Under the pieces are notes generated by a model that worked only from the letters and a program-made list of their open reading frames with translations, made no database searches and was not told the DNA's origin. DNA of 64,000 bases from Apostichopus japonicus (lineage: Eukaryota; Echinodermata; Holothuroidea; Aspidochirotida; Stichopodidae), in NCBI RefSeq assembly GCF_037975245.1, contig NC_092562.1:11267001-11331000 (forward strand), read 5' to 3'. Position 1 is the stretch's first letter. Every line of letters begins with the position of its first letter. The position numbers and the translations under genes are program-made. Below are positions 1,607 through 64,000 of this stretch, piece after piece.

Positions 1607-4600
1607 TCACAGGTTAGCTGGTGGAACTTTTGGCATTATTTGTTGAAGCTTCATCGCAACAGCCATGTTACCATTAAACTTCATTTTTCCAGAGAAGAAG
1701 GCCTGTCAAGGCAAACAAAAACAAAAAATTATAAGAACTGGCAGAAAACAAACAAAAAGTATACTATTCATTTAATTTCTTTGTATAATGTGTGGAACTA
1801 TTTTATTTGAAAGAAAATCAATAATTTAACAACAAGTACCAACAATCATAAAAACACTTTCCACCAATCACCTCCCTGCATTTCTGACTTACATTTTACT
1901 CTCATCACACCCCCTCTCCCACTTCTCATCACACCCCCTCCCTCCCACCTTACATTCCCCTCCCTCCCACCTTACATTCCCCTATATTTCCCTGCAATTG
2001 CTGAAGTTTTAGTGTCCAAATTTGTCAAAATCCCCCAAAAAATCACTTTATTGTTACCTTCTGGGGATGGGGTTGGTGGTGGGGGGACAAACATTCAAGT
2101 TACCAACTTCTAATCCAATGTACAATAAAGCACAACATGACCTATAAAACTATAGTAGCTCTGAAATTGAAATACTTCAAATTAGCAAGAACTGAAATAA
2201 GTATCATTCCCAATTTTTAACCATGTATGGAATAAAATCGCCTACTACAAAATTGTTGTGAGTTTGCTACACAATTTTTGCCCTTTATCTTTGATCTTCA
2301 CATATTGTCAATGTTAAGGACAGTACATGCTACATAGTGATAACATTTTGGGACCAATTTTAATTAATACTCCTAGCATAACTATTTATAGCAGATAAGG
2401 TAATATGAATATGGTCCTTACCGCTTGAGGTTGTAGTTTACCCAGCATGAGGTCGTAAAGATCTGAATCCTTCATGGTGAATGTACAGTCGGCTTTCTCT
2501 GTAAAATTTTTCAAAGCAAAGATCCAAAATTACATGTTTATTTGGGCTAAAACTGAATGCCAAATTACTCATATCGATCGACCAACACTGCATGGGTCTC
2601 TCTTTTTCTGCTTCTGAAATGAAAGTGCATCTCCAAATAGGAATAATTACATTTGTCTGTCTGAATGTCTATCTGTCTGTCTGTCTTTCAATGTTCTTCT
2701 GTTATCTAATATTTGTAGTGAAAATCTAAAACAAAAACTATCCCCCCCCCAAAAAAAAAAAGCATCTCTCCATATATTCCATAATTTTCTATTTATCTGG
2801 AAGATAGTACCACCCAGCAGGTAGAATATCAATATATATGAGTGATGCGATAACCCTCATTGACAGGGGACAACCTATTCCGCATAGTTAAATGATTTGC
2901 AGAAAGACAAAATCATCGCCGATTTGTACACAAACTTAGTATTTTCAGAATTTTAAGGATAGCAAAATTAAAAACAACTCAACAGTTTTTATGCAAACTT
3001 TGATAACTTAATCACTTCCATCCAACTATAAAAGAAACTTTTGGGTCTGTAATTGTCAGAAAGCTAGTCTAAGGTCCATCTGCACAAATAAGTAGAGGAG
3101 TACGGTTTTAGACTTACTGTTGCTTGATCCTCGGGTCACTGACCCATTGCCGTTTTTCACGTCGATGACCCAGGTCTCCTTGGCACCTCCCGGACCATCG
3201 GTGACGTTGAAAGCAAACACTGCCTTTACCTTCTTGACGTATTCTGCCCCCTCCTGAGGTTATTGAAAAGATTTTAAAATTTGTGAGAAAAACTGATGGA
3301 TTTATCCAACGACACATAAAAGACAGAAATGTTAGATTTTCAGATTAAAATAAAGAGGTGAGAATGAAAGGTAGAGCTAACTGTAGCCTAGTCAAATTTC
3401 TTGCTTAAATATATACTGGAATACTCAGAATGCGATAAGGTTCCACTGGTGCTTAGAAAATATGAGCAAACATGCACTGCTATCATATTGCTGTATCATA
3501 AAATCTCTTTGGGGTAACATGTGGGCGGTTCTTAGGCCAACTGCTACTTAGAGCAATGTTTCTGTAGGTTAGGTGACTATTAACCAATTTAAGGGTACTT
3601 TGGACGAGATCATATCTTGGGGGTAACATGTGGACCAATCTTAGGCCAACTGCTACTCAGAGCAATGTTTCTGTGAGTAAGATGAATATTAACCGTTTTG
3701 AGGGTACTCTGGACAAGATCATATCTTGGGGGGTCACATGTGGGCCATTCTTAGGCCAACTGCTACTTAGAGCAATGTCTCTGTACTTGAGAAGAATACT
3801 CACTGTTTTGAGGGTACTTTGGACGAGATCAAAGACTGGCTCGGCCTTAAAGGCCCCGGCTGCTGTAGTGGCTGGATAGAGAGCAGTTCTATTTAAAGAA
3901 AAGAAAGGTAGAAAGGACATTAATATTTCCAAAAGTGATAAAATTTCCAACTATCAAGCGATAGAAAATGGAAGCCTTACACTGTAAATAATGAGTTCAT
4001 TCCTACTTTTGCATTGCATTAGCAACTTGTCATAGCCTTTGCTCTCTTGTTGCCATGGCAGCAATGAAGTATTGGGTTGGATGTGTGTCCTACCTCTTAT
4101 ACCTATCTTAAAGCATTGATAGACCCTGAAGATGCTGTGCTTCAAAGTCAAACTTTTGAACGCAATTTCAATCTACTTAAGCCTCAACGTAAACAGTCAA
4201 GGACGGTAACAATTTTTCTCTTATCATGCGACATGTGCTATCCTTCAGGTTGTTCCTATATATGAATATGTATATTATAAGAAAGAAGTTTTACAAAATG
4301 AAAGAAGGAAACATAGATCTTGTCTGCTGAGGCATTATCAGGAATTATTTCGCCCATTTATCCAAATCTATAAAATAAACTATATTGAATGCTCAATGTT
4401 TGCCGATTTTTTTCATTAAATTGTTCCTTCTCGCTTCGGTGGATAGCAACTAAGCCATTGATTTAATCATTTAGCTTCCAGGCAAAACTAAACCATAGAG
4501 CGACATCATAAACGCTGTCATTACTGTTTTCCTTCAAAAGAATAAATCATGCTCTGAACATCGCAGAGTCACCACACACCCTCTGATTTTAGAGTAATAA

Positions 4601-31946: not shown

Positions 31947-33137
31947 TTAATCTTTACTTATTGTTTGCCTGAGAACCCTCTTAAAAACTTTATCAGTAAT
32001 CTGGCTCATCACAGACCAAATAAATGTCTCATTATTGTCCTTTGACTCTTCATTTCTCTGCTGTTCCTGGGATTCAATCAACTCTTTTTCATATTCTTCG
32101 TAACGACCTAGCACTTTTTCAACTTCCCTTTCTGGCCTCACATGTACCTTCTGCAGCCGAAGCAATGGAGCAACAAGATTAAAATGAGTAATTTTCTTAT
32201 TGATACCCTTCACTTCCTCTGAAAATTCCAAGACCAGCTGGGTCCACTTCTTCTGGTTAAAATCGTTGAGAGGTTCGGGGCCTAATTTTAATCTCTCTTT
32301 GTAAAGCTTGGATTTCGAATCCGTGAGTAGAAACTTGATGTCTCTCTCCAGAGCCACAAATTCAGGGACAACTCCATTGTTTACCAAAACTTGATTAAGA
32401 TTATGCTGGGATATATCGATAAATGGACAGTATTGTGTTTTAGACGGTAAAGGCCGTCCTTTTCCCGAGAGATTGTCAAAGTCACCCTTTGCCATGGACT
32501 CCTGAATCAGATCTTCCACTAATCTTTCTATTGCATTTGTAACCTTGTTTCTTTTCACGGATTTCTTCTGTTTGACCGTCAAAGACTTGCCGTTGGTTGG
32601 TTGTTCTGCCTGCTTTTGTACTTTGTGATTTGACACTCTCTGAAAAGCCTTTAGCACTTGTTGCTTCTTGTATGTTTTCTCTCTTTGGCTGGGAGATCCA
32701 AAACCAAAGCCACCATAGTTCAAAAACTGTCTATGTTGAGGTGCAATATGACTGTCATCAGAAATATCATCATCTGTTTCTTCTTCTTCGTCTTCCTGAT
32801 TCTCATCTGCATTTCTTAAGTAAGAGTGAACAACTTTATAAGCTTCTTGGAGTTGAGTAAACTTAACAGAATCAGCTGCAGGATTACCACTGTCAGGGTG
32901 ATAAATCTTAGCCTGGTTAATATACTTTTCCCGAAGTTCTTTGAAATTTGGTTCGGCAGACAATTTCAGAATAGAAAATGACTTCTCAAGAGAAGTTGCC
33001 TTCTTCTCCTGAAACAGGAGCACACTGGTTCTGTAAAAGTTGCGATGTAAAATAACTTTATATTGGGCGACACCTATTCTTTTCCACAAGGCCCCAATGT
33101 AGGGCCTATGGTAGACCTTAAGACATCTGTACAACAT
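31947..33137 (-). CDS. DNAJC28: DNAJC28: J-domain protein with C-terminal DUF1992 domain
   Basis: A 396-residue single-exon CDS. Residues 1-37 are basic and hydrophobic without acidic residues, consistent with a mitochondrial presequence. J domain about 52-107 with the HPD motif at 80-82, which stimulates Hsp70 ATPase. An acidic linker rich in Glu/Asp is at 111-129. The DUF1992 region about 201-330 contains AIERLVEDLIQ, GDFDNLSGKGRPLP and RERLKLGPEPLNDFN-type blocks (YKERLKLGPEPLNDFNQKK here). Human DNAJC28 also has a single coding exon. On the minus strand CTTTGTTC..TTACACAG lies just before the start, suggesting a 5' UTR intron. Biochemical role poorly known. A paralogue without J domain lies 9.1 kb upstream. 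Confidence 0.93.
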   Translation of the reverse strand: MLYRCLKVYHRPYIGALWKRIGVAQYKVILHRNFYRTSVLLFQEKKATSLEKSFSILKLSAEPNFKELREKYINQAKIYHPDSGNPAADSVKFTQLQEAYKVVHSYLRNADENQEDEEEETDDDISDDSHIAPQHRQFLNYGGFGFGSPSQREKTYKKQQVLKAFQRVSNHKVQKQAEQPTNGKSLTVKQKKSVKRNKVTNAIERLVEDLIQESMAKGDFDNLSGKGRPLPSKTQYCPFIDISQHNLNQVLVNNGVVPEFVALERDIKFLLTDSKSKLYKERLKLGPEPLNDFNQKKWTQLVLEFSEEVKGINKKITHFNLVAPLLRLQKVHVRPEREVEKVLGRYEEYEKELIESQEQQRNEESKDNNETFIWSVMSQITDKVFKRVLRQTISKD

Positions 33138-42251: not shown

Positions 42252-43118
42252 TTAATCTGTTTGTCTTAGTATTCTGTTAAAGAACCTCTCAGTAAACTGA
42301 CTCAGTGTAGACTTTTTGATGTTTTGATTTGTAATCTTTGGCTCTTCAATCCTTGTTAAATCCTCTGAAACCTTCATACTTTTGGCATGCTCTTTGTAAC
42401 GATCTAGCACTTTTTCAAGCTCTCGCTCTGGTCGCAGGAGAGCCTTTTGCAACCTCAAGGAAGGTACTGATAGATTAAAATTGACAATTATTTTATTGAC
42501 ACCTTTCACCTCATCTGAAAACTCTGAGACCAAACCAGCCAATTTCTTTCGGTTAAAATCGTTGAGAGGTTCAGGACCTAACTTCAACCTCTCCCGAAAG
42601 AGCCTAGATTTACATTCGGCGAGATCTTCTTTGGCTTCTCGCTCCAGAGTTACAAACTCTGGAGCAGCTCCATTATTCTTCAGGACCCGGTTAAGATTGT
42701 ACTGGTGTATGTCTATATAAGGGGACACTGGTTTAGGTGGAATGGGTTTACCCCTGCCAGGAAGATCTTCAAAATCACCATGTTCCACGGATTGGTGAAT
42801 CATATCTTCCACTAATCGTTCTATTGTACCGGTCAGTTGGCCTCTGTCCCCAAACCTATTTTGTTTTAATAGAGACCCAGCCTTGCCATCTGCAGATTCA
42901 TCGTCCTGGTGATCTGTTTCTGACATCTCCTCCACGGCTTTGTTTACTCGATGTAACCTGTAGCTGTCCGCAACTTTACTAGGAGGTCCAAAACCGCCAA
43001 AGGTTCTGTGAAAGTTCCTTTGAAAATTACTGACATCATGTCGCCACATCCATATTCTATACCCCAAACCTCCACAGTTGGGTCTACCGAAGACAAGAAG
43101 ACATTTGCATGACATCAT
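42252..43118 (-). CDS. DNAJC28-like paralogue lacking the J domain (DUF1992 protein)
   Basis: A 288-residue single-exon CDS, clearly paralogous to the gene at 31.9-33.1 kb and on the same strand. Residues 1-39 resemble a mitochondrial leader ending QRNFHRT, matching HRNFYRT (31-37) of DNAJC28. The next residues FGGFGPPSK match YGGFGFGSPS (141-150) of the paralogue, so about 100 residues containing the J domain and acidic linker are absent. DUF1992 region about 98-225 is well conserved (TIERLVEDMIHQS, GDFEDLPGRGKPIPP, RERLKLGPEPLNDFN). The frame is intact over its whole length, so it is probably under selection. TTTCTGTCCATAG just before the start on the minus strand may be a 5' UTR splice acceptor. 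Cannot act as an Hsp70 co-chaperone through HPD. Confidence 0.88.
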   Translation of the reverse strand: MMSCKCLLVFGRPNCGGLGYRIWMWRHDVSNFQRNFHRTFGGFGPPSKVADSYRLHRVNKAVEEMSETDHQDDESADGKAGSLLKQNRFGDRGQLTGTIERLVEDMIHQSVEHGDFEDLPGRGKPIPPKPVSPYIDIHQYNLNRVLKNNGAAPEFVTLEREAKEDLAECKSRLFRERLKLGPEPLNDFNRKKLAGLVSEFSDEVKGVNKIIVNFNLSVPSLRLQKALLRPERELEKVLDRYKEHAKSMKVSEDLTRIEEPKITNQNIKKSTLSQFTERFFNRILRQTD

Positions 43119-50900: not shown

Positions 50901-53162
50901 AATCTGATATCTAGACGCATCAAAACTGTTAAATGTCTTGAGCAAGTTTTTTTTTCGTAGCTGTGTGAGTGAGATTTTCATCACAATTTCACGTACCTAT
51001 CACAATTTCACATACATATCACAATTTCACATACATATCACAATTTCACATACATATCACAATTTCACATACATATCACAATTTTACATACATATCACAC
51101 ATGTAAGCACAGACCATTGATGGCAGTTGTATTTCCTTGCATACTGTACATAAAAATTTAGTGGTCAAATTTTGTGTAGCATTTTCAAAGGCTCTGATTT
51201 TTATTCTCTCATTGAATACTGTAGTTCCTGTGTAGAAAACATGGTAAATATACATCTTCACACTTGTATATAGCAACTTGCCGACCATTTTGCAATGCGA
51301 TACTGGATAAATTATTCCCTGTATACTGTTATTTTGTGATTTCATCACACGTTTCATATCTTTGTTTCATATTTTTAATGACACCACCAACTTGGCACCA
51401 AGTTATCACATACCACATGGGTGTTCATGCTGTACACACCCAGGTATACCTGTGACAAAATGACAGAGAGTAAATAACATTTAGTTCCCCGTACTTCTGT
51501 CTGTGGTTTGCCGGATTTCAAAAGTTCACACCTCAGGACATTGCTAAGGTGTACATACCAGGGTTATAATTTAGTAGTTCAAATTTTGTGTACATTGCAG
51601 TTTTTGAAGGCTCTGAAGTCTAAAGTTTCTTAATATAAAAATGCTGTATGATTCCTGTGTCCAAAAAAAAGTGTGAAATTTACATCTTTGGACTTGTATC
51701 GCAACTTGACCAATTTGTATAGCGTTTTGCGATGCGATCCCGGAGTAATGATTCCCTGCTGATGATGACGTTTGAGTTATGGAGTCATTTGTTTCGTGAA
51801 GCAGGACAGATGTACATGTAGCCCACTTATTGACAAACCTATCTGCTCAAATCTCACGACACATTTTGCTTTTTGCATCTGCTGTCTCATACCATGAAAA
51901 ACAAAAAACACTGTTGTGAATGTTATGCACTGTTTGAATTTTGTGCGAATTTGAGAAACAAACTTAGGATGACCCCCGTTGACTTGTGCAACTGATAGTT
52001 TATTCACAACTGATGGCAGACCATTCATTGGCCAATAAAATACAGATGCCCCTATTTACTACATTCTGATGTTGTTAAGACATCTCTTTTTGGAGGAACA
52101 CTCTCTCTCTTACATTTCCCATCATGCAATGCATAATTAAGATACAAATTAGTCAATTTACAATTTATATTGCTGCATGAATGTCAAAAGAAAATTAACA
52201 AGAAACAAAAATAATATAATATCGAGACTCTCTGGGCCAAAATTTCACTCTGAAAGCGGTTGCAAGTCAATCCTAGCTAACTTGACCTATTACAAACCAA
52301 AGAGACCTCTCTTTATTTGTCATTAACTGCTTTAACGGGCAATTACTAGACATTTTCATTTTCATTTCCTTAGCTAATGAGGAGAACTGCTTTCGGACTG
52401 AAACATGTCACCCGAGACTCCGAGAGTGAACATTGTATACAGTAACACACTGGCGCGCCGCGCGCATCTGATGGAGCATGAAATATACCTATGTAAATTA
52501 TATATATAGTAATGAAATTGCAAACAGCAACACTTTCTTTTAACCTTGGCATGTGTGAAACATTACAGCCAAACAACTAATTAATATATTAGTCTGTTAA
52601 TGGGTTTGAGATTATGAAGATCACTTCTTGTTACTTCTTCGGGCAATTGACTAGAAAGATTGATTTTAGCTCTGAATTTCACTCATCGTCAGCGTAGCGT
52701 ATGATTTGTGTGACATAGACTTTCTCTTCAAGAACATTCGGCGTTGTTTGGTCGTTTATTTGTTTGTTGGTTTGTTTGTTGTTGTTTTTTGTACTCAAAA
52801 AACACAACAATTGGAAAAACAAAATTTAAGGCTGGCAAATTTGTATTTGTGGATCATAAAATTGATATATATAAATATTAAAGCAACTATTTTAATAACT
52901 TATTAGTTTGAGTTACAAGAGAGTTTGTTTGTAATTCCATTTTCTCAGGAGGGGCCACAGTTATCAACTTCAGACAAGTCGGTGGTTCTGACGTTATCGA
53001 TAGAGGGGTACAACCTGTAGCCGTGATACAACCACCCCCTCAGGTACCACCAATGGACCCTATACCTCTAACCAACCTCATCTCCTACGTGGAAGAGAAC
53101 AAACTGAACGGTGCTCTTGTCGATCAGTGGAGTGTAAGTATCAAGAAAATCATGTTTCGCTG

Positions 53163-59100: not shown

Positions 59101-61843
59101 AATGAAGAAATGATGAAGCTTTTTTCATATACCCAATAGACTGCCACTATTACCCAAAAGAACCTCAGAAATTTAGACTAAGACTGCCGCTAAAAAATTC
59201 CTTTAAGTCTCACATCACAGCCCTCAATAAAGACTTGGGACCCCTTAACAACTATCAGTTCTACAAACATATGTAATCCGTTCTTTGCTCCTGAATCTGC
59301 TTTCTGTATAGTCATGGTTTATTTGGTTCTCATTCTATCAATGCAACTTACACTTATCTAGGGTCATATTATCATTTTGTTACATTTTGCACGTTTCATT
59401 CGGCTGCCAAGTATTGCTGACGAAGGTCCCAGTGGACCAAAATTCCAATACATTTCCCAAAACAATACTCCTGTATTTTTCTGCTTTTCTTTAATAATAT
59501 TCTTTTGAAGTATACGCGGAATTTCTTTATGTAATATATTCATATAAAATATAGTACCCCTATATGGTACAGTAACTTACAGCATGTTGTTACTCGAGTT
59601 TCAAGCCTGCAGTGTGCTGTGATCATCAGACATAAACAGTCCTGTGACCTTATTTCTTTTTAGCACCATTGGGGTGGTTTGTTGCCATGGCAACACTTTG
59701 AGATGAGCTCTGTTTTTTTGTTTAATACTGTCCTTGGTATGCAAATTTGCCAGATTTTCTTCTACACAGCGGTGGCACTGGCCCGATTCACGTTGTGTGT
59801 GTTCGATACCTTTACTATCTCCCAGCTTATATTTGGCTAATGTTTAACCAGCGCAATAGTTTATAAAGCCCAAGTCACATAGGACACAGAATCTTAAGTC
59901 GTACCTCGGCATTTCAGGAGGACCCTTGAAGCAGCGATTCATAAACCACACAAATTCTCTCAGACACGAAAAGTACCAAAAAGAAAAACAAAACTGTAAA
60001 AGTACGTATGGAACCTGAAAGAGGAAGAAATAAGGTCATATACACGACTGTTTACGTCAAGTTGTCTGATGATGGCCGCACACTGCAGTTGTGAAACTCG
60101 AGTAACAGCATGCAAGCGTTTTTTTCCATCATGTAGTTCATGGAACCTGATCGATGCAAACATTAAACCTGTGTTTCACCTTTTTGCATGTTTTTATCGT
60201 AGATAACAAACATTGAGGCTTTACCAGGAAACTTTATGCTCATCAGTTGCAGTTTTTAAGTGTGAAGAACCGATAAAAAAAGACAAATCGGTTTTCAAAC
60301 TTTGTGCCAGTCTTAACATGCTATTGTATTCAGTCATAATTGGATATTCCCCTGTATGTAACAATATCAACCCCCCCCCCCAAATAAAATATATAAGCAA
60401 AAAACGAAACAAAAATAACCTGACCTGATTTTCTTATTCACACGAGTTGTTAATGAGTAATTAATAAATTTATTGCAAACTTGATGTGTCCCGATGATTA
60501 AGTTTATAATCAAGGAAGTATTTATTCAGTATCGAAAAGTACTACACAAATGGACAAATTGTTCTGATACAATAGCATCTATAGGTACAGTATATACATA
60601 GAGTATTATACTGCTGTATGAGACCAGATTCAGAGTCTTCAAAGTTGCCACTTTTTCAAATTTGAGGACCTAAATGTTATCCATGATAATGCTCTTAATT
60701 TTATATTTTAAAGATTATTTCTTGTTGGGATACAATTTGAAGTTCTTTAAAATCTAGTTTGATTTATTCCTGATATAATTTGGTTGGAGTAAAGCATATT
60801 ATAAGAACATTTGCAGCTCACTTTTTTTCCCCCCTAAAAGTTTGAAAAAACCCAATCTGGATGGTACTGTACCACCGGGTTGTGACCTGACCTGATTTTC
60901 TTATTCACAGGAGTTGTTAATGAGTAATTAATAAATTTATTGCAAAATTGATGTTTCCCGATCATTAAGTTTATAATCAAGGAAGTATTTATTTAGTATC
61001 GAAGAGTACTACACAAATGGACAAATTGTTCTGATACAATAACAAAAATATATATACATAGAGTATAGCAGTTTTTATAGCATGAACCATAGTATTATAC
61101 TGCTGTATGAGACCAGATTCAGAGTCTTCAAAGTTGCCATATTTAAATTTGAACACTTTGAATTTTAAATTTGGACAATTTTATCCCTGATAATGCTCTT
61201 AATTTAATATTTTACAGATTACTTCTTGTTGGGATACAATTTGAAGTTTTTTAAAATCTAGTTTGATTTATTCCTGATATAATTTGGTTGGAGTAAAGCA
61301 TAGAAGAACATTTGCAGCTCACTTTCTTTTCCCCTAAAAATTTTAAAAAACCAATCTGGATGGTACTGTACATCACCGGGTTGTGACAAAGTCATCGCAA
61401 ATGTTGCATAAATTGAAGATACAAGCATTATCCTCTTGATCATACAAGTATTTTGATTGCACTTCTTTGGTTAATCATAAAGACCAGGAATGCCGTGGTC
61501 ATGTTTCGGTAATGTCCTCTGAGCCCCTTAAAAGAAGTGTCATTCATGTAAAAAATTATTGTGTTAGTGTCATGGCCTCCACGCCTACCCACCAAACTTG
61601 CCAAATGTTTCCAATATAATACTGTTATGGGCGTGATCAAACAATATATTTCAGAGCTTTCATAATTTTTTATGTTACATTAATTTATGCGATATTAGTA
61701 ATTCATAATATATATACTTTTTTTAATCAATTTTATGCCTTTTTGATTTTTCCAGAGTTTGCCTCAAGACTTAACCCAGCCAGCCACTGTGGCATTGAAA
61801 AGTGAAAACAAACAGAAGAACCGTTATCGAAATATTATAGCTT
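47982..61843 (+). CDS. Receptor-like protein tyrosine phosphatase, N-terminal part (4 exons; continues past the window)
   Basis: Exons 47982-48073, 49890-49972, 52949-53133, 61756-61843, all GT-AG with matching phases; 149 residues so far, ending in phase 1. Residues 6-29 are one hydrophobic segment (LIILGVIILTLLVVAVVLFI...), followed by a strongly basic KRKRLRIK stop-transfer stretch, so the predicted topology is an almost absent ectodomain with a cytoplasmic catalytic part. An in-frame TGA seven codons before the ATG supports this start. The last exon ends KNRYRNIIAY, the hallmark entry of classical PTP domains, normally followed by DHSRV; the PIPLTNLISYVEENK lead-in resembles receptor PTPs. 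NIIAY resembles the MAM-containing R2B group, but the subfamily cannot be fixed. Catalytic HCSAG lies outside the window. The intron after exon 4 begins with the splice-donor array. Confidence 0.82.
49690..49805. repeat. ~35-bp tandem repeat (ATAGACTATATATCTGCATA)
   Basis: Four units in PTP intron 1, immediately upstream of exon 2. Open frames across it are artefacts. Confidence 0.8.
50988..51100. repeat. ~20-bp tandem repeat (ATCACAATTTCACATACAT)
   Basis: Six nearly identical units in PTP intron 2; the first has CGTACCT in place of CATACAT. Confidence 0.9.
51130..51765. repeat. Two diverged copies of a ~210-bp repeat; third relative at 57.25-57.95 kb
   Basis: Shared ordered words: TTTTGTGTA, AGGCTCTGA, TTCCTGTGT, ACATCTT, CTTGTAT, GCAACTTG, TTTTGCGATGCGAT-like and ATTCCCT. 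Copies at about 51130-51330 and 51550-51765; the 57.25-57.95 kb copy has the same order but is split by about 0.5 kb of other sequence. Confidence 0.6.
52374..52415 (+). other. Degenerate hammerhead-like motif
   Basis: CTAATGA, an imperfect hairpin, then GAAACATGTC. ACATGT is palindromic as in dimeric hammerheads, but the core G is changed (CTAA for CTGA) and the hairpin pairs poorly. Likely inactive if related. Confidence 0.25.
53161..53220. repeat. (AT)n microsatellite
   Basis: About 55 bp of alternating AT starting about 28 bp after the exon 3 splice donor of the PTP gene. Confidence 0.95.
53940..54375. repeat. Diverged ~190-bp tandem repeat in PTP intron 3
   Basis: Repeated GTTTTGTGTCGATTAG, TGCATGGGTTCAT, TGATTGGATGTTA and AAGTGTT.AAAGCTATAT words, two to three copies with indels. 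Confidence 0.65.
54376..56598. other. PTP intron 3 interior, no feature recognised
   Basis: About 2.2 kb of AT-rich intron. Scattered TACTGTACAGTA-type palindromic words, otherwise nothing supported. Confidence 0.4.
56599..56966 (-). mobile_element. TTAA-flanked MITE, family A, copy 4
   Basis: TTAA at 56599-56602 and 56963-56966. In the opposite orientation to copies 1-3: starts AGGCATTGAAGACTCGCC and ends GAGTCTTCACACCCT. Full length (368 bp). In PTP intron 3. Confidence 0.85.
58619..58767. repeat. Two-copy tandem duplication (~76 bp)
   Basis: AGATCTCACTCTAAGCTTGG plus about 50 following bases occurs twice with small indels, starting at about 58619 and 58695. Confidence 0.85.
59412..59450 (+). 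other. Hammerhead-like motif, copy 3 (degenerate)
   Basis: TATTG, CTGACGA, A, GGTCC-CAGT-GGACC, AAAATTC, CAATA. Stem I (TATTG/CAATA) and stem II pair perfectly, but the conserved G of GAAA is missing, so cleavage is not expected. It shares the extra A before stem II with the other two copies. Confidence 0.35.
59579..60112. mobile_element. Inverted-repeat element with ~75-bp arms
   Basis: CAGCATGTTGTTACTCGAGT on the left is mirrored by ACTCGAGTAACAGCATG on the right. The arms continue imperfectly through CTGCAGTGTG / CACACTGCAG and ATCATCAGACA / TGTCTGATGAT to a TAAACAGTC / GACTGTTTA pair. About 0.53 kb, no target duplication recognised, no coding capacity. Confidence 0.65.
60421..61388. repeat. 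~470-bp direct tandem duplication in PTP intron 3
   Basis: Copy 1 about 60421-60887, copy 2 about 60888-61388. Both begin TGACCTGATTTTCTTATTCA and end with ATGGTACTGTACCACCGGGT-like sequence and TTGTGAC. Copies differ by small indels, including an extra ~25 bp in copy 2. Confidence 0.85.
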
Positions 61844-63210
61844 GTAAGTACCTACACTATCATCACAACATACTTCTATTGTGTGTACTGTACCTCATTT
61901 GATAGGGATCAAAATAGAAATATTATAGCTTGTATGTACGTACAATATCATCACAACATACTTCCATTGTGTATACTGTACCTCATATGATAGGGATCAA
62001 AATAGAAATATTATAGCTTGTAAGTACCTACACTATCATCACAGCATACTTCTATTGTGTATACTGTTCCTCATTTGATAGGGATCAAAATAGAAATATT
62101 ATAGCTTGTAAGTACCTACACTATCATCACAGCATACTTCTATTGTGTATACTGTTCCTCATTTGATAGGGATCAAAATAGAAATATTATAGCTTGTAAG
62201 TACCTACACTATCATCACAGCATACTTCTATTGTGTATACTGTTCCTCATTTGATAGGGATCAAAATAGAAATATTATAGCTTGTATGTACGTACAATAT
62301 CATCACAACATACTTCCATTGTGTATACTTTACCTTATTTGATAGGGATCAAAATTGGAAATATAGCTTGTACCTACACTATCATCACAACATACTTCCA
62401 TTGTGTATACTTTACCTCATTTGATAGGGATCAGAATTGATATATTATAGCTTGTAAGTACCTACACTATCATCACAACATACTTCATTGTGTATACATT
62501 ACCTCAATTGATAGGGATCAAAATTGAAATATTATAGCTTGTATATGTACGTACAATATCATCACAACATACTTCCATTGTGTATACCTTACCTCATTTG
62601 ATAGGGATCAAAATTTGAAATATAGCTTGTAAGTACCTACACTATCATCACAACATACTTCCATTGTGTATGCATTACCTCCTTTGATAGTGATCAAAAT
62701 CGAAATATTATAGCTTGTAAGTACCTACACTATCATCACAACATACTTCCACTGTGTATGCTATACCTCATTTGATAGGGATCCAAATAGAAATGTTATA
62801 GCTTGTAAGTACCTACACTATCATCACAACATACTTCTATTGTGTATACATTACCTCATTTGATAGGGATCAAAATTTGAAATATTATAGCTGTAAGTAC
62901 AGTATCTACACTATCATCACAATATACTCCATTGTGTATACATTACCTCCTTTGATAGTGATCAAAGTAGAAATATTATAGCTTGTAAGTACCTACACTA
63001 TCATCACAACATACTTCCATTGTGTATGCATTACCTCCTTTAATAGTGATCAAAATCGAAATATTATAGCTTGTAAGTACCTACACTATCATCACAACAT
63101 ACTTCCATTGTGTATACATTACCTCATTTGATAGGGATCCAAATTTGAAATATTATAGCTTGTAAGTACCTACACTATCATCACAACATACTTCCATTGT
63201 GTATACTTTA
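61829..63210 (+). repeat. ~86-bp tandem array (about 16 units) containing the PTP exon 4 end and splice donor
   Basis: Each unit begins with AAATATTATAGCTT, identical to the last bases of exon 4, then usually GTAAGTACCTACACTATCAT. The first unit is the genuine exon-intron junction at 61843/61844. By eye 12 of 16 units keep GTAAGT, two have GTATGT, one GTATAT and one GTACCT. Units with ATCGAAATATTATAGCTT match 18 exon bases. Reading through the first unit reaches an in-frame TGA. Confidence 0.92.
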
Positions 63211-64000
63211 CTTCTGAGGGATGTTTAGGGGACAAACATTAGCTGGTTTGGCTCAGACTGACTGACAGTATTCTGTGTTTGTGTGAAGTTACAGTGCAGA
63301 ATGAAATAGATTACAGAGCCATTACTATGCAGATACTGCACATTAATCATACAGATGTGAAAAGGAGTTCTGTATTAACTAGCTGTGCAGTCAGTAGTGG
63401 TGCTATGGGAGGGGGACATGAGCAGACCCCAGATTTCCCCCTTGCCAAGTCCGCCCCCCCCCCCCCCCCCCGCCAAATCAGATCAGCTGCTGGCTGGTGC
63501 CACCACTGTGTGCAATTAACTGATATCTAGGTTAGATCAAATTCTAAAGGTCCATCAGAAGTAAATCAATATTTTGCATTACAGTAGTTACTACTGTAGT
63601 ATGACAATACTCTAAAACAACTGAAACAACAGGTGAAACATGTCAGTAATTGTCGATGCCTGTTTTTTTTTTTTGGCCTACTTTTAATTTGCTGTTCTTT
63701 ACAATGTTGAACCTATTGTTTAAATCACTGGTTCCCTAAATAGCGTTGTCACACAGCAATGCATGTACTGTAGGATGGTTTAATTAAATCCCTCCCTGGT
63801 GAATGGTATAAACTGTTCATGCAAAGCAAGAAACCAAATGGATACCATTCAATCTTAGTATATTTCAGGTTTTAAAGGCAAAGAGTAAACTCATTACAAC
63901 CACCATGCATGATGATGTAACTATTTATTGTTGCTTAATGTCAACCAATACTTTAAATCCTGAAATTGACCAATTGATGTTTATCAGGAAATTTGTTACA
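63211..64000 (+). other. Start of the remaining PTP intron, to window edge
   Basis: No next exon (expected to begin completing a Tyr codon and then DHSRV-like residues) was found. Contains a poly-C run (about 63454-63472) and a poly-T run. The gene continues beyond the window. Confidence 0.5.

Follow-up and report, generated by a model that had tools for sequence, protein, structure and literature searches.

What is the significance of an intron that begins with a long series of copies of its own 5' splice site: does the series serve the gene that carries it, or is it a by-product of repeat growth? The question is raised by a receptor-type protein tyrosine phosphatase (PTP) gene of the holothurian Apostichopus japonicus, which lies at the end of the 64,000-nucleotide stretch analysed here (NCBI RefSeq assembly GCF_037975245.1, contig NC_092562.1, positions 11,267,001 to 11,331,000, forward strand; hereafter the window) and in which a minisatellite crosses an exon-intron junction. 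With a probability of about 0.73, we consider that in a repeat-rich genome tandem duplications cross splice donors in a largely blind manner, and that the outcome is tolerated as the exon-adjacent donor is used.

The array was delimited with Tandem Repeats Finder (TRF; period 88, 15.7 copies, 90% matches, score 2162) and its features are collected in Table 1. The consensus unit comprises 15 nt of exon tail, the donor hexamer and 67 nt of intron, and reads GAAATATTATAGCTT/GTAAGTACCTACACTATCATCACAACATACTTC... (here and below a slash marks an exon end); the duplicated segment, 15 nt of exon plus 73 nt of intron, crosses an existing junction. Head-to-tail units of this size fall in the minisatellite range (~10-100 bp), and the first copy provides the real donor. 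Sixteen donor positions were found between 61844 and 63162, and GTAAGT is present in 12 of them, namely the real donor and 11 of the 15 decoys; units 2 and 6 carry GTATGT, unit 7 has lost the hexamer through a deletion and the donor of unit 9 is interrupted by an insertion. A variant block is common to units 2, 6 and 9 and units 3-5 are identical, a sharing that would fit what slippage or unequal exchange leaves. When the assembly was searched with the 88-bp unit, under conditions that could miss weak or masked copies, 16 matches were returned, every one inside the array, so that at this sensitivity the array is local; a dispersed satellite or transposon-derived repeat was rejected, related copies elsewhere not being found in that search. 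Intron gain through tandem duplication inside coding sequence was also rejected, the array crossing an existing junction. The equality between the unit and the preceding exon, both of 88 nt, looks accidental. Tandem repeats occupy 7.9% of the window in 21 merged arrays; one of them (3506-3831), donor-like in its TRF consensus, was dropped as GTAAGT is present in none of its three copies and GTGAGT in one. The intron just upstream of exon 61756-61843 contains a ~0.5-kb tandem duplication (60418-61381, 85% identical).

All exons of the phosphatase gene were placed from the reading frame and splice signals. The match of exon 61756-61843 to receptor PTPs in the PDB begins at residue 17. The next exon lies 2,931 nt downstream, beyond the window end (window-equivalent 64775-64851), and is joined in phase 1; from the first donor the junction reads KNRYRNIIA-YDEYRVVL (...NIIA-YDEYRVVLDIIDDDNFSDYVNASYMK) with no stop, and later exons give YIASQGP, EWPDRD and VHC/SAGAGRTG. 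The 193 residues obtained by joining match receptor-type PTPs of known structure, the best PDB chain being PTPRS (E 5.2e-72), and KNRYRNIIAYDEYRV, EWPDRD and VHC/SAGAGRTG, which we take to be the KNRY motif, the WPD loop and the HC(X5)R loop, follow each other in frame across exons. On the upstream side, among the open frames listed between 43.1 and 61.8 kb, the juxtamembrane exon 52949-53133 alone was placed, by eye; it is flanked by TTTCTCAG and GTAAGTATC and its peptide is ...PLTNLISYVEENKLNGALVDQWS. The parts placed are the PTP domain and the juxtamembrane region, the transmembrane and extracellular parts not having been located. In the whole genome, candidate PTP-domain exons are present at 548 places, of which 150 were scored, many clustered on C2 and C16.

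When the exon was joined to the next one from each of the 16 donors, the frame was open from the first donor alone, which supports it as the real one; from the other 15, an in-frame TGA TAG is met 19 codons into the array. Donor usage is here inferred from the frame, and use of a decoy would take away the entire catalytic domain. The original prediction had described an array of ~86-bp units at the exon 4/intron junction of a PTP gene, with most decoys as GTAAGT and with truncation ahead of the catalytic domain from any downstream donor. The host, the hexamer count and the truncation (15 of 15 decoys) are in agreement with our data, and the array and the junction are genuine; the period had to be corrected to 88, and the exon number 4 is not established, a single upstream exon having been placed.

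Table 1. Coordinates of the phosphatase-gene features and of two donor-spanning arrays in other genes (window numbering unless a contig or locus is named).
Feature	Position	Strand	Basis or remark
Preceding PTP-gene exon (putative), juxtamembrane, ...PPMDPIPLTNLISYVEENKLNGALVDQWS	52949..53133	+	Joins 61756-61843 in frame
88-nt exon encoding SLPQDLTQPATVALKSENKQKNRYRNIIA, phase 0 to 1, PTP domain start	61756..61843	+	Frame; PDB match
88-bp x 15.7 minisatellite	61829..63211	+	TRF, unit alignment, genome matches of unit
Real 5' splice site CTT/GTAAGT, unit 1	61844..61849	+	Sole donor of 16 restoring the PTP frame
15 decoy donors, 11 GTAAGT	61932..63167	+	Unit alignment
Decoy donor positions	61932, 62020, 62108, 62196, 62284, 62370, 62454, 62541	+	
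Further decoy donor positions	62629, 62717, 62805, 62893, 62985, 63073, 63162	+	
Second donor-spanning minisatellite, including the real donor	L002:7082-7753 (window-equivalent 81082-81753)		Catalytic-loop exon end VHC
KRI1 array (L012/L025), 54-bp units	C2:28048939-28050349		27 AGGTAAGT donors at exon end
SPTLC1 array (L008/L027), 38-bp units	C2:10269107-10270901		At SPTLC1 donor

The same gene contains a second donor-spanning array, about 19 kb downstream of the first and unrelated to it in sequence. Its 45-bp unit, CATTGTAG/GTAAGTATTATATAGTC..., is repeated 14.5 times (L002:7098-7753) after the exon L002:6930-7081, which ends in ...LLVHC, and 8 nt of exon end lie inside the repeat. Fifteen donor positions, the real one included, start from L002:7082, and 14 of them are GTAAGT. 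Read-through adds a single residue before a stop is met, immediately past the catalytic Cys, and decoy use would delete the catalytic loop and everything beyond it; as stops follow decoy use or read-through in each case, both arrays would inactivate the enzyme. Seven donors of the gene were seen, after 53133, 61843, 64851, 72241, 77491, 81081 and, as judged by visual inspection, about L002:8216, and TRF shows no array at the five others.

Selective maintenance of the decoys of the first array was looked for by counting mismatches per alignment column. Over the 16 units, 1.5 mismatches per column were found in the donor hexamer versus 1.27 outside the nine donor positions, and over units 2-15, 1.5 versus 0.94 elsewhere; 60 of 88 circular six-column windows (71 of 88 for units 2-15) had as few mismatches as the donor or fewer. 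No extra conservation of the donor among the copies was found by this measure, and selection on these decoys is unsupported because the donor bases are no better conserved than the remaining unit; selectively maintained decoys were consequently rejected for this array. The original prediction had held that the donor was kept while other positions diverged, and it had named equal divergence of donor and flank, with no decoy usage, as what would refute it: the sequence half of that outcome is what we observe. Its other suggestion, that the array is simply a minisatellite arisen across the junction, is supported. Donor strength is also unremarkable by prediction, the first-array donor pairing with U1 at -6.8 kcal/mol versus -14.0 for the consensus, and 101 of the 3,615 other GTs in the window pairing equally well or better.

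Outside the phosphatase gene, 23 arrays of the octamer AGGTAAGT were present among the matches listed (first 100 places in each gap class), and 20 were examined, three on C5 being left out. At least nine of the 20 start at a recognisable coding-exon end, corresponding to 7 of 18 loci after two copy pairs are merged. Thirteen peptides upstream of first donors, selected and trimmed by eye, were scanned. L012 matched Kri1_C (5.6e-28), L005 Glyco_transf_21 (3.4e-11; presumably ceramide glucosyltransferase) and L015 the amino-acid transporter family Aa_trans (3.9e-8), and the matches of L018 to Y_phosphatase (0.0027), L021 to EGF (0.0031) and L023 to TSP1_ADAMTS (0.0041) fall below curated cut-offs, as those of fragments may. 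No Pfam match was obtained for 7 of the 13; among these L008 matched plant LCB1 (7.9e-6) and serine palmitoyltransferase 1 (7yiu, 2.6e-5) in the PDB, and L006, L010, L014, L017, L020 and L022 have open frames for which no family match was found. L016 and L019, which were not scanned, resemble copies of L015 and L018, and nothing convincing appeared on inspection of the five remaining unscanned loci (L007, L009, L011, L013 and L024). Across arrays, the exon tail included in the repeat varies from about 4 to 46 nt and AG directly precedes the donor in many units. Predicted U1 pairing was compared with that of the real donor over ten arrays, one of them without a scorable decoy, and in 42 of the 59 decoys scored it is as strong or stronger; the tally reaches 11 of the 15 phosphatase decoys. 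Of 11 arrays read, 9 have a stop ahead of the second donor, the exceptions being SPTLC1 and the EGF gene.

Two of these genes are instructive. In KRI1, 25 overlapping triple matches at 53-54 bp spacing give the 27 donors listed in Table 1; the six decoys scored all equal the real CAG/GTAAGT (-14.0), the first donor joins the next exon in frame (...RWVSLRKTTQY-REEDQSKNEEEDEDDE...) and read-through stops after one residue. In SPTLC1, the real donor is TAG/GTGAGT (-10.6), the decoys range from -9.9 to -10.7 and GTAAGT occurs in four of the five scored. Its first donor again joins in frame (...RGFYGTI-DVHLFLEEKL), the second shifts the frame into a stop of the next exon, and 11 of 11 decoys tried end in stops. 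One Kri1_C match was found in the assembly and SPTLC1 was found at one place only, which means one locus found for each and is no proof of single-copy status. Both genes are presumably essential, and they presumably work despite the array because the first-donor join restores the frame and one locus each was found. Arrays are also present in two PTP paralogs on C2, at 27.4 and 27.6 Mb, where they occupy the donor that follows ...DPHSDYYNANYI(E/K), and 3 of 4 and 3 of 3 of their scored decoys pair with U1 at least as well as the real donor. At L021 (C3:16161488), an EGF-type exon has a two-copy donor duplication whose second donor would insert 30 in-frame codons without a stop, a possible route to a longer exon.

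In view of the second array and of those in other genes, the interpretation shifts from a gene-specific device towards a general minisatellite by-product. The initial duplication of the phosphatase array would have had its left end ~15 nt within the exon and its right end in the intron, and slippage or unequal exchange would then have expanded it to 16 copies. Since all the added copies lie beyond the first donor, within the intron, use of that donor leaves the coding sequence intact, and blind repeat growth at donors would be nearly invisible to selection as long as the exon-adjacent donor wins and the extra copies stay intronic. The spliceosome would pick the first donor by its position beside the exon body (exon definition) and not by its strength; position is favoured over strength because 42 of the 59 decoys are predicted to pair at least as well as the real donor. 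Occasional decoy use would yield mostly truncated transcripts, probably degraded by nonsense-mediated decay, with no dedicated function.

Several results weigh against so blind a process. In the second array, the donor hexamer shows 0.5 mismatches per column versus 1.75 elsewhere (rank 12 of 45; 0.5 versus 1.5 and rank 18 of 45 for the decoys alone) and contains zero substitutions, which is matched by 3 of 45 windows; this donor leans suggestively towards conservation, short of significance. The presence of arrays at two of the seven phosphatase donors represents clustering above what a blind process usually gives. A comparison was also made with isolated AGGTAAGT sites, namely the first 40 listed for C1, all on the plus strand, for which the longest upstream frame of at least 20 aa gave 28 peptides from 27 sites (one second frame). 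Credible families were obtained at 5 of the 40 (Ras, at only 0.087, dynein, AIG1, Ldh and fringe), a sixth match, to a viral small protein at 0.026, being counted as chance. By Pfam, coding-end families are present at 6 of 18 array loci (P = 0.08), or at 7 of 18 with SPTLC1, found by another method (P = 0.035), and the open-frame lengths of arrays and isolated sites gave P = 0.10; peptides were trimmed by eye for the arrays but by rule for the controls, a difference in favour of the arrays. Real donors are thus not avoided by the AGGTAAGT arrays, whose enrichment at coding ends, if any, is unproven.

Raw motif counts over the genome revealed no excess of the donor motif in tandem arrays over a reversed control. 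For three GTAAGT at gaps of 30-60, 5,636 + 4,607 matches were found versus 5,802 + 5,684 for the reversed pattern (10,243 versus 11,486); for three AGGTAAGT, 320 + 60 versus 311 + 142 (380 versus 453) at gaps of 28-58 and 277 + 182 versus 275 + 180 (459 versus 455) at gaps of 59-89. These match counts are dominated by long arrays. The octamer itself occurs 27,121 times and its reverse 40,132 times, and per occurrence the frequency of AGGTAAGT in triple arrays is 1.24 and 1.49 times that of the control, a tentative further point against blindness, the matches being clustered in few arrays. The reversed octamer is inflated by TGAA/GGAT tetranucleotide repeats, in total and in arrays alike, so that neither the raw nor the per-occurrence test is clean. 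A hand count of distinct arrays at gaps of 28-58 on C1, C2 and C3 to 11.78 Mb gave 11 for the donor octamer, counting that of the phosphatase gene, and, for the control, 7 together with 4 of tetranucleotide type, the numbers being too small for a conclusion. On the acceptor side, the pattern TTTTGCAG in triplicate was swamped by one dispersed ~53-bp satellite, which contains it in each unit and is present on C1 to C7 among the matches listed.

The first alternative to be weighed is that decoys compete for U1, so that some transcripts are cut short ahead of the catalytic core and phosphatase output depends on the length of the array. The 15 decoys of the first array that lead to TGA TAG and the stop behind the catalytic Cys in the second would be compatible with such poison splicing, and SRSF1 and hnRNP A1 are described as shifting the choice between competing 5' splice sites of human genes (PMC5585400). 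Against it, the first-array decoys show no excess conservation, intron sequence gives in-frame stops by chance, the EGF duplication would remain stop-free and KRI1, a housekeeping-type gene, has a like anatomy; we hold this attenuation unlikely. No better can be said of its extension to a genome-wide class of length-tunable attenuators, in which up to dozens of decoys per array, as strong as the real donor or stronger and mostly unproductive, would let copy number set gene output. If it were true, the phosphatase gene would be doubly tuned, each of its two arrays removing catalysis.

It is likewise doubtful that 5' splice sites, or AG/GT proto-splice sites by allowing silent recursive splicing, are preferred places for the arrays to arise or to persist. 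The two arrays of one gene, the trend towards coding ends compared with isolated sites and the per-occurrence excess speak for such an origin, as does the AG before the donor in many units, with which splicing to one of the later copies would regenerate an exon/GTAAGT junction. On the other hand, donor hexamers and octamers in arrays do not exceed the reversed motifs in raw counts, no fixed anchor exists because the exon tails differ so widely in length, and the inflated control octamer blurs both tests.

Quite improbable, in our opinion, is an array acting as a platform that recruits U1 small nuclear ribonucleoprotein, defining the first donor or blocking premature intronic polyadenylation while the decoys stay unspliced. 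Protection of transcripts from premature polyadenylation by U1 is known as telescripting, and within its 1.38 kb the first array presents 12 sites at which, by direct reading, positions +1 to +7 form seven consecutive pairs with U1, with four AATAAA/ATTAAA hexamers further on in the intron, from 63783 to 64625. The modest predicted pairing, which many other GTs of the window equal, and the lack of detected donor conservation in the first array argue against this role. An assembly artefact, or a collapsed or expanded repeat, has next to no probability: assembly of tandem arrays is difficult and units 3-5 show no differences among themselves, but the other units have many private differences, the contigs are large (671.6 Mb in 35 contigs) and similar arrays occur at other places.

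A minisatellite of the human IFI6 gene reportedly provides multiple splice donor sites (Turri, Cuin and Porter 1995, Nucleic Acids Res 23:1854). Two downstream repeat units of IFI6 (6-16, G1P3) are used as donors, giving three mRNA species (PMC4526556). IFI6 is a direct precedent of a donor-spanning array, its minisatellite units offering 5' splice sites at an exon end as in the phosphatase gene; in contrast, the phosphatase unit is of 88 bp, compared with ~12 bp in IFI6, and a downstream donor would truncate the protein. Exon-intron boundary repeats have been described in primate segmental-duplication genes, with 30-bp units in four copies on average, variable between paralogs and producing novel introns (PMC2812944). 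They share with our array a minisatellite expansion at an exon-intron boundary that alters splicing options, whereas the phosphatase array lies at an existing intron boundary, with 16 copies of 88 bp at one place only. Tandem duplication is also a source of introns (PMC2891723), and in a model from potato (PMC4974935) a donor copy is likewise placed downstream of the original; there a coding duplication within an exon creates a new intron, whereas the phosphatase duplication spans a junction that was already there and does no more than lengthen the intron. Human minisatellite variable number tandem repeats similarly overlap genes and exons, with splicing effects cited, and those of the reference set make up 0.52% of the human genome (PMC8096271); the comparison with the 7.9% of our window, made at different thresholds and on one window, is indicative at most. 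A report of donor-spanning arrays as a genome-wide class was not found in searches of openly licensed literature.

Two observations concern other genes. Neighbouring open frames resembling DnaJ homolog C28 are present on the minus strand of the window at 31947-33137 and 42252-43118, with a DnaJ domain match in the first only. A mitochondrial-type COX1 was found on C35, and fragments of one occur twice on C29, at about 14.7-16.1 kb and 30.8 kb. The C35 frame is open under several mitochondrial codes, but the residues taken to be conserved at AAA and AGR codons are obtained with codes 9 and 14 alone, and code 9 moreover places the stop sensibly, as would fit an echinoderm.

To our knowledge, most studies of the choice among equal 5' splice sites have relied on minigenes with two sites. 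Arrays that place 15 to 27 near-identical donors in conserved genes constitute a natural experiment on this choice. If the first donor is used near-exclusively, its place beside the exon body counts for more than the strength and number of donors; if decoys are used, the arrays would be a new kind of tunable unproductive splicing.

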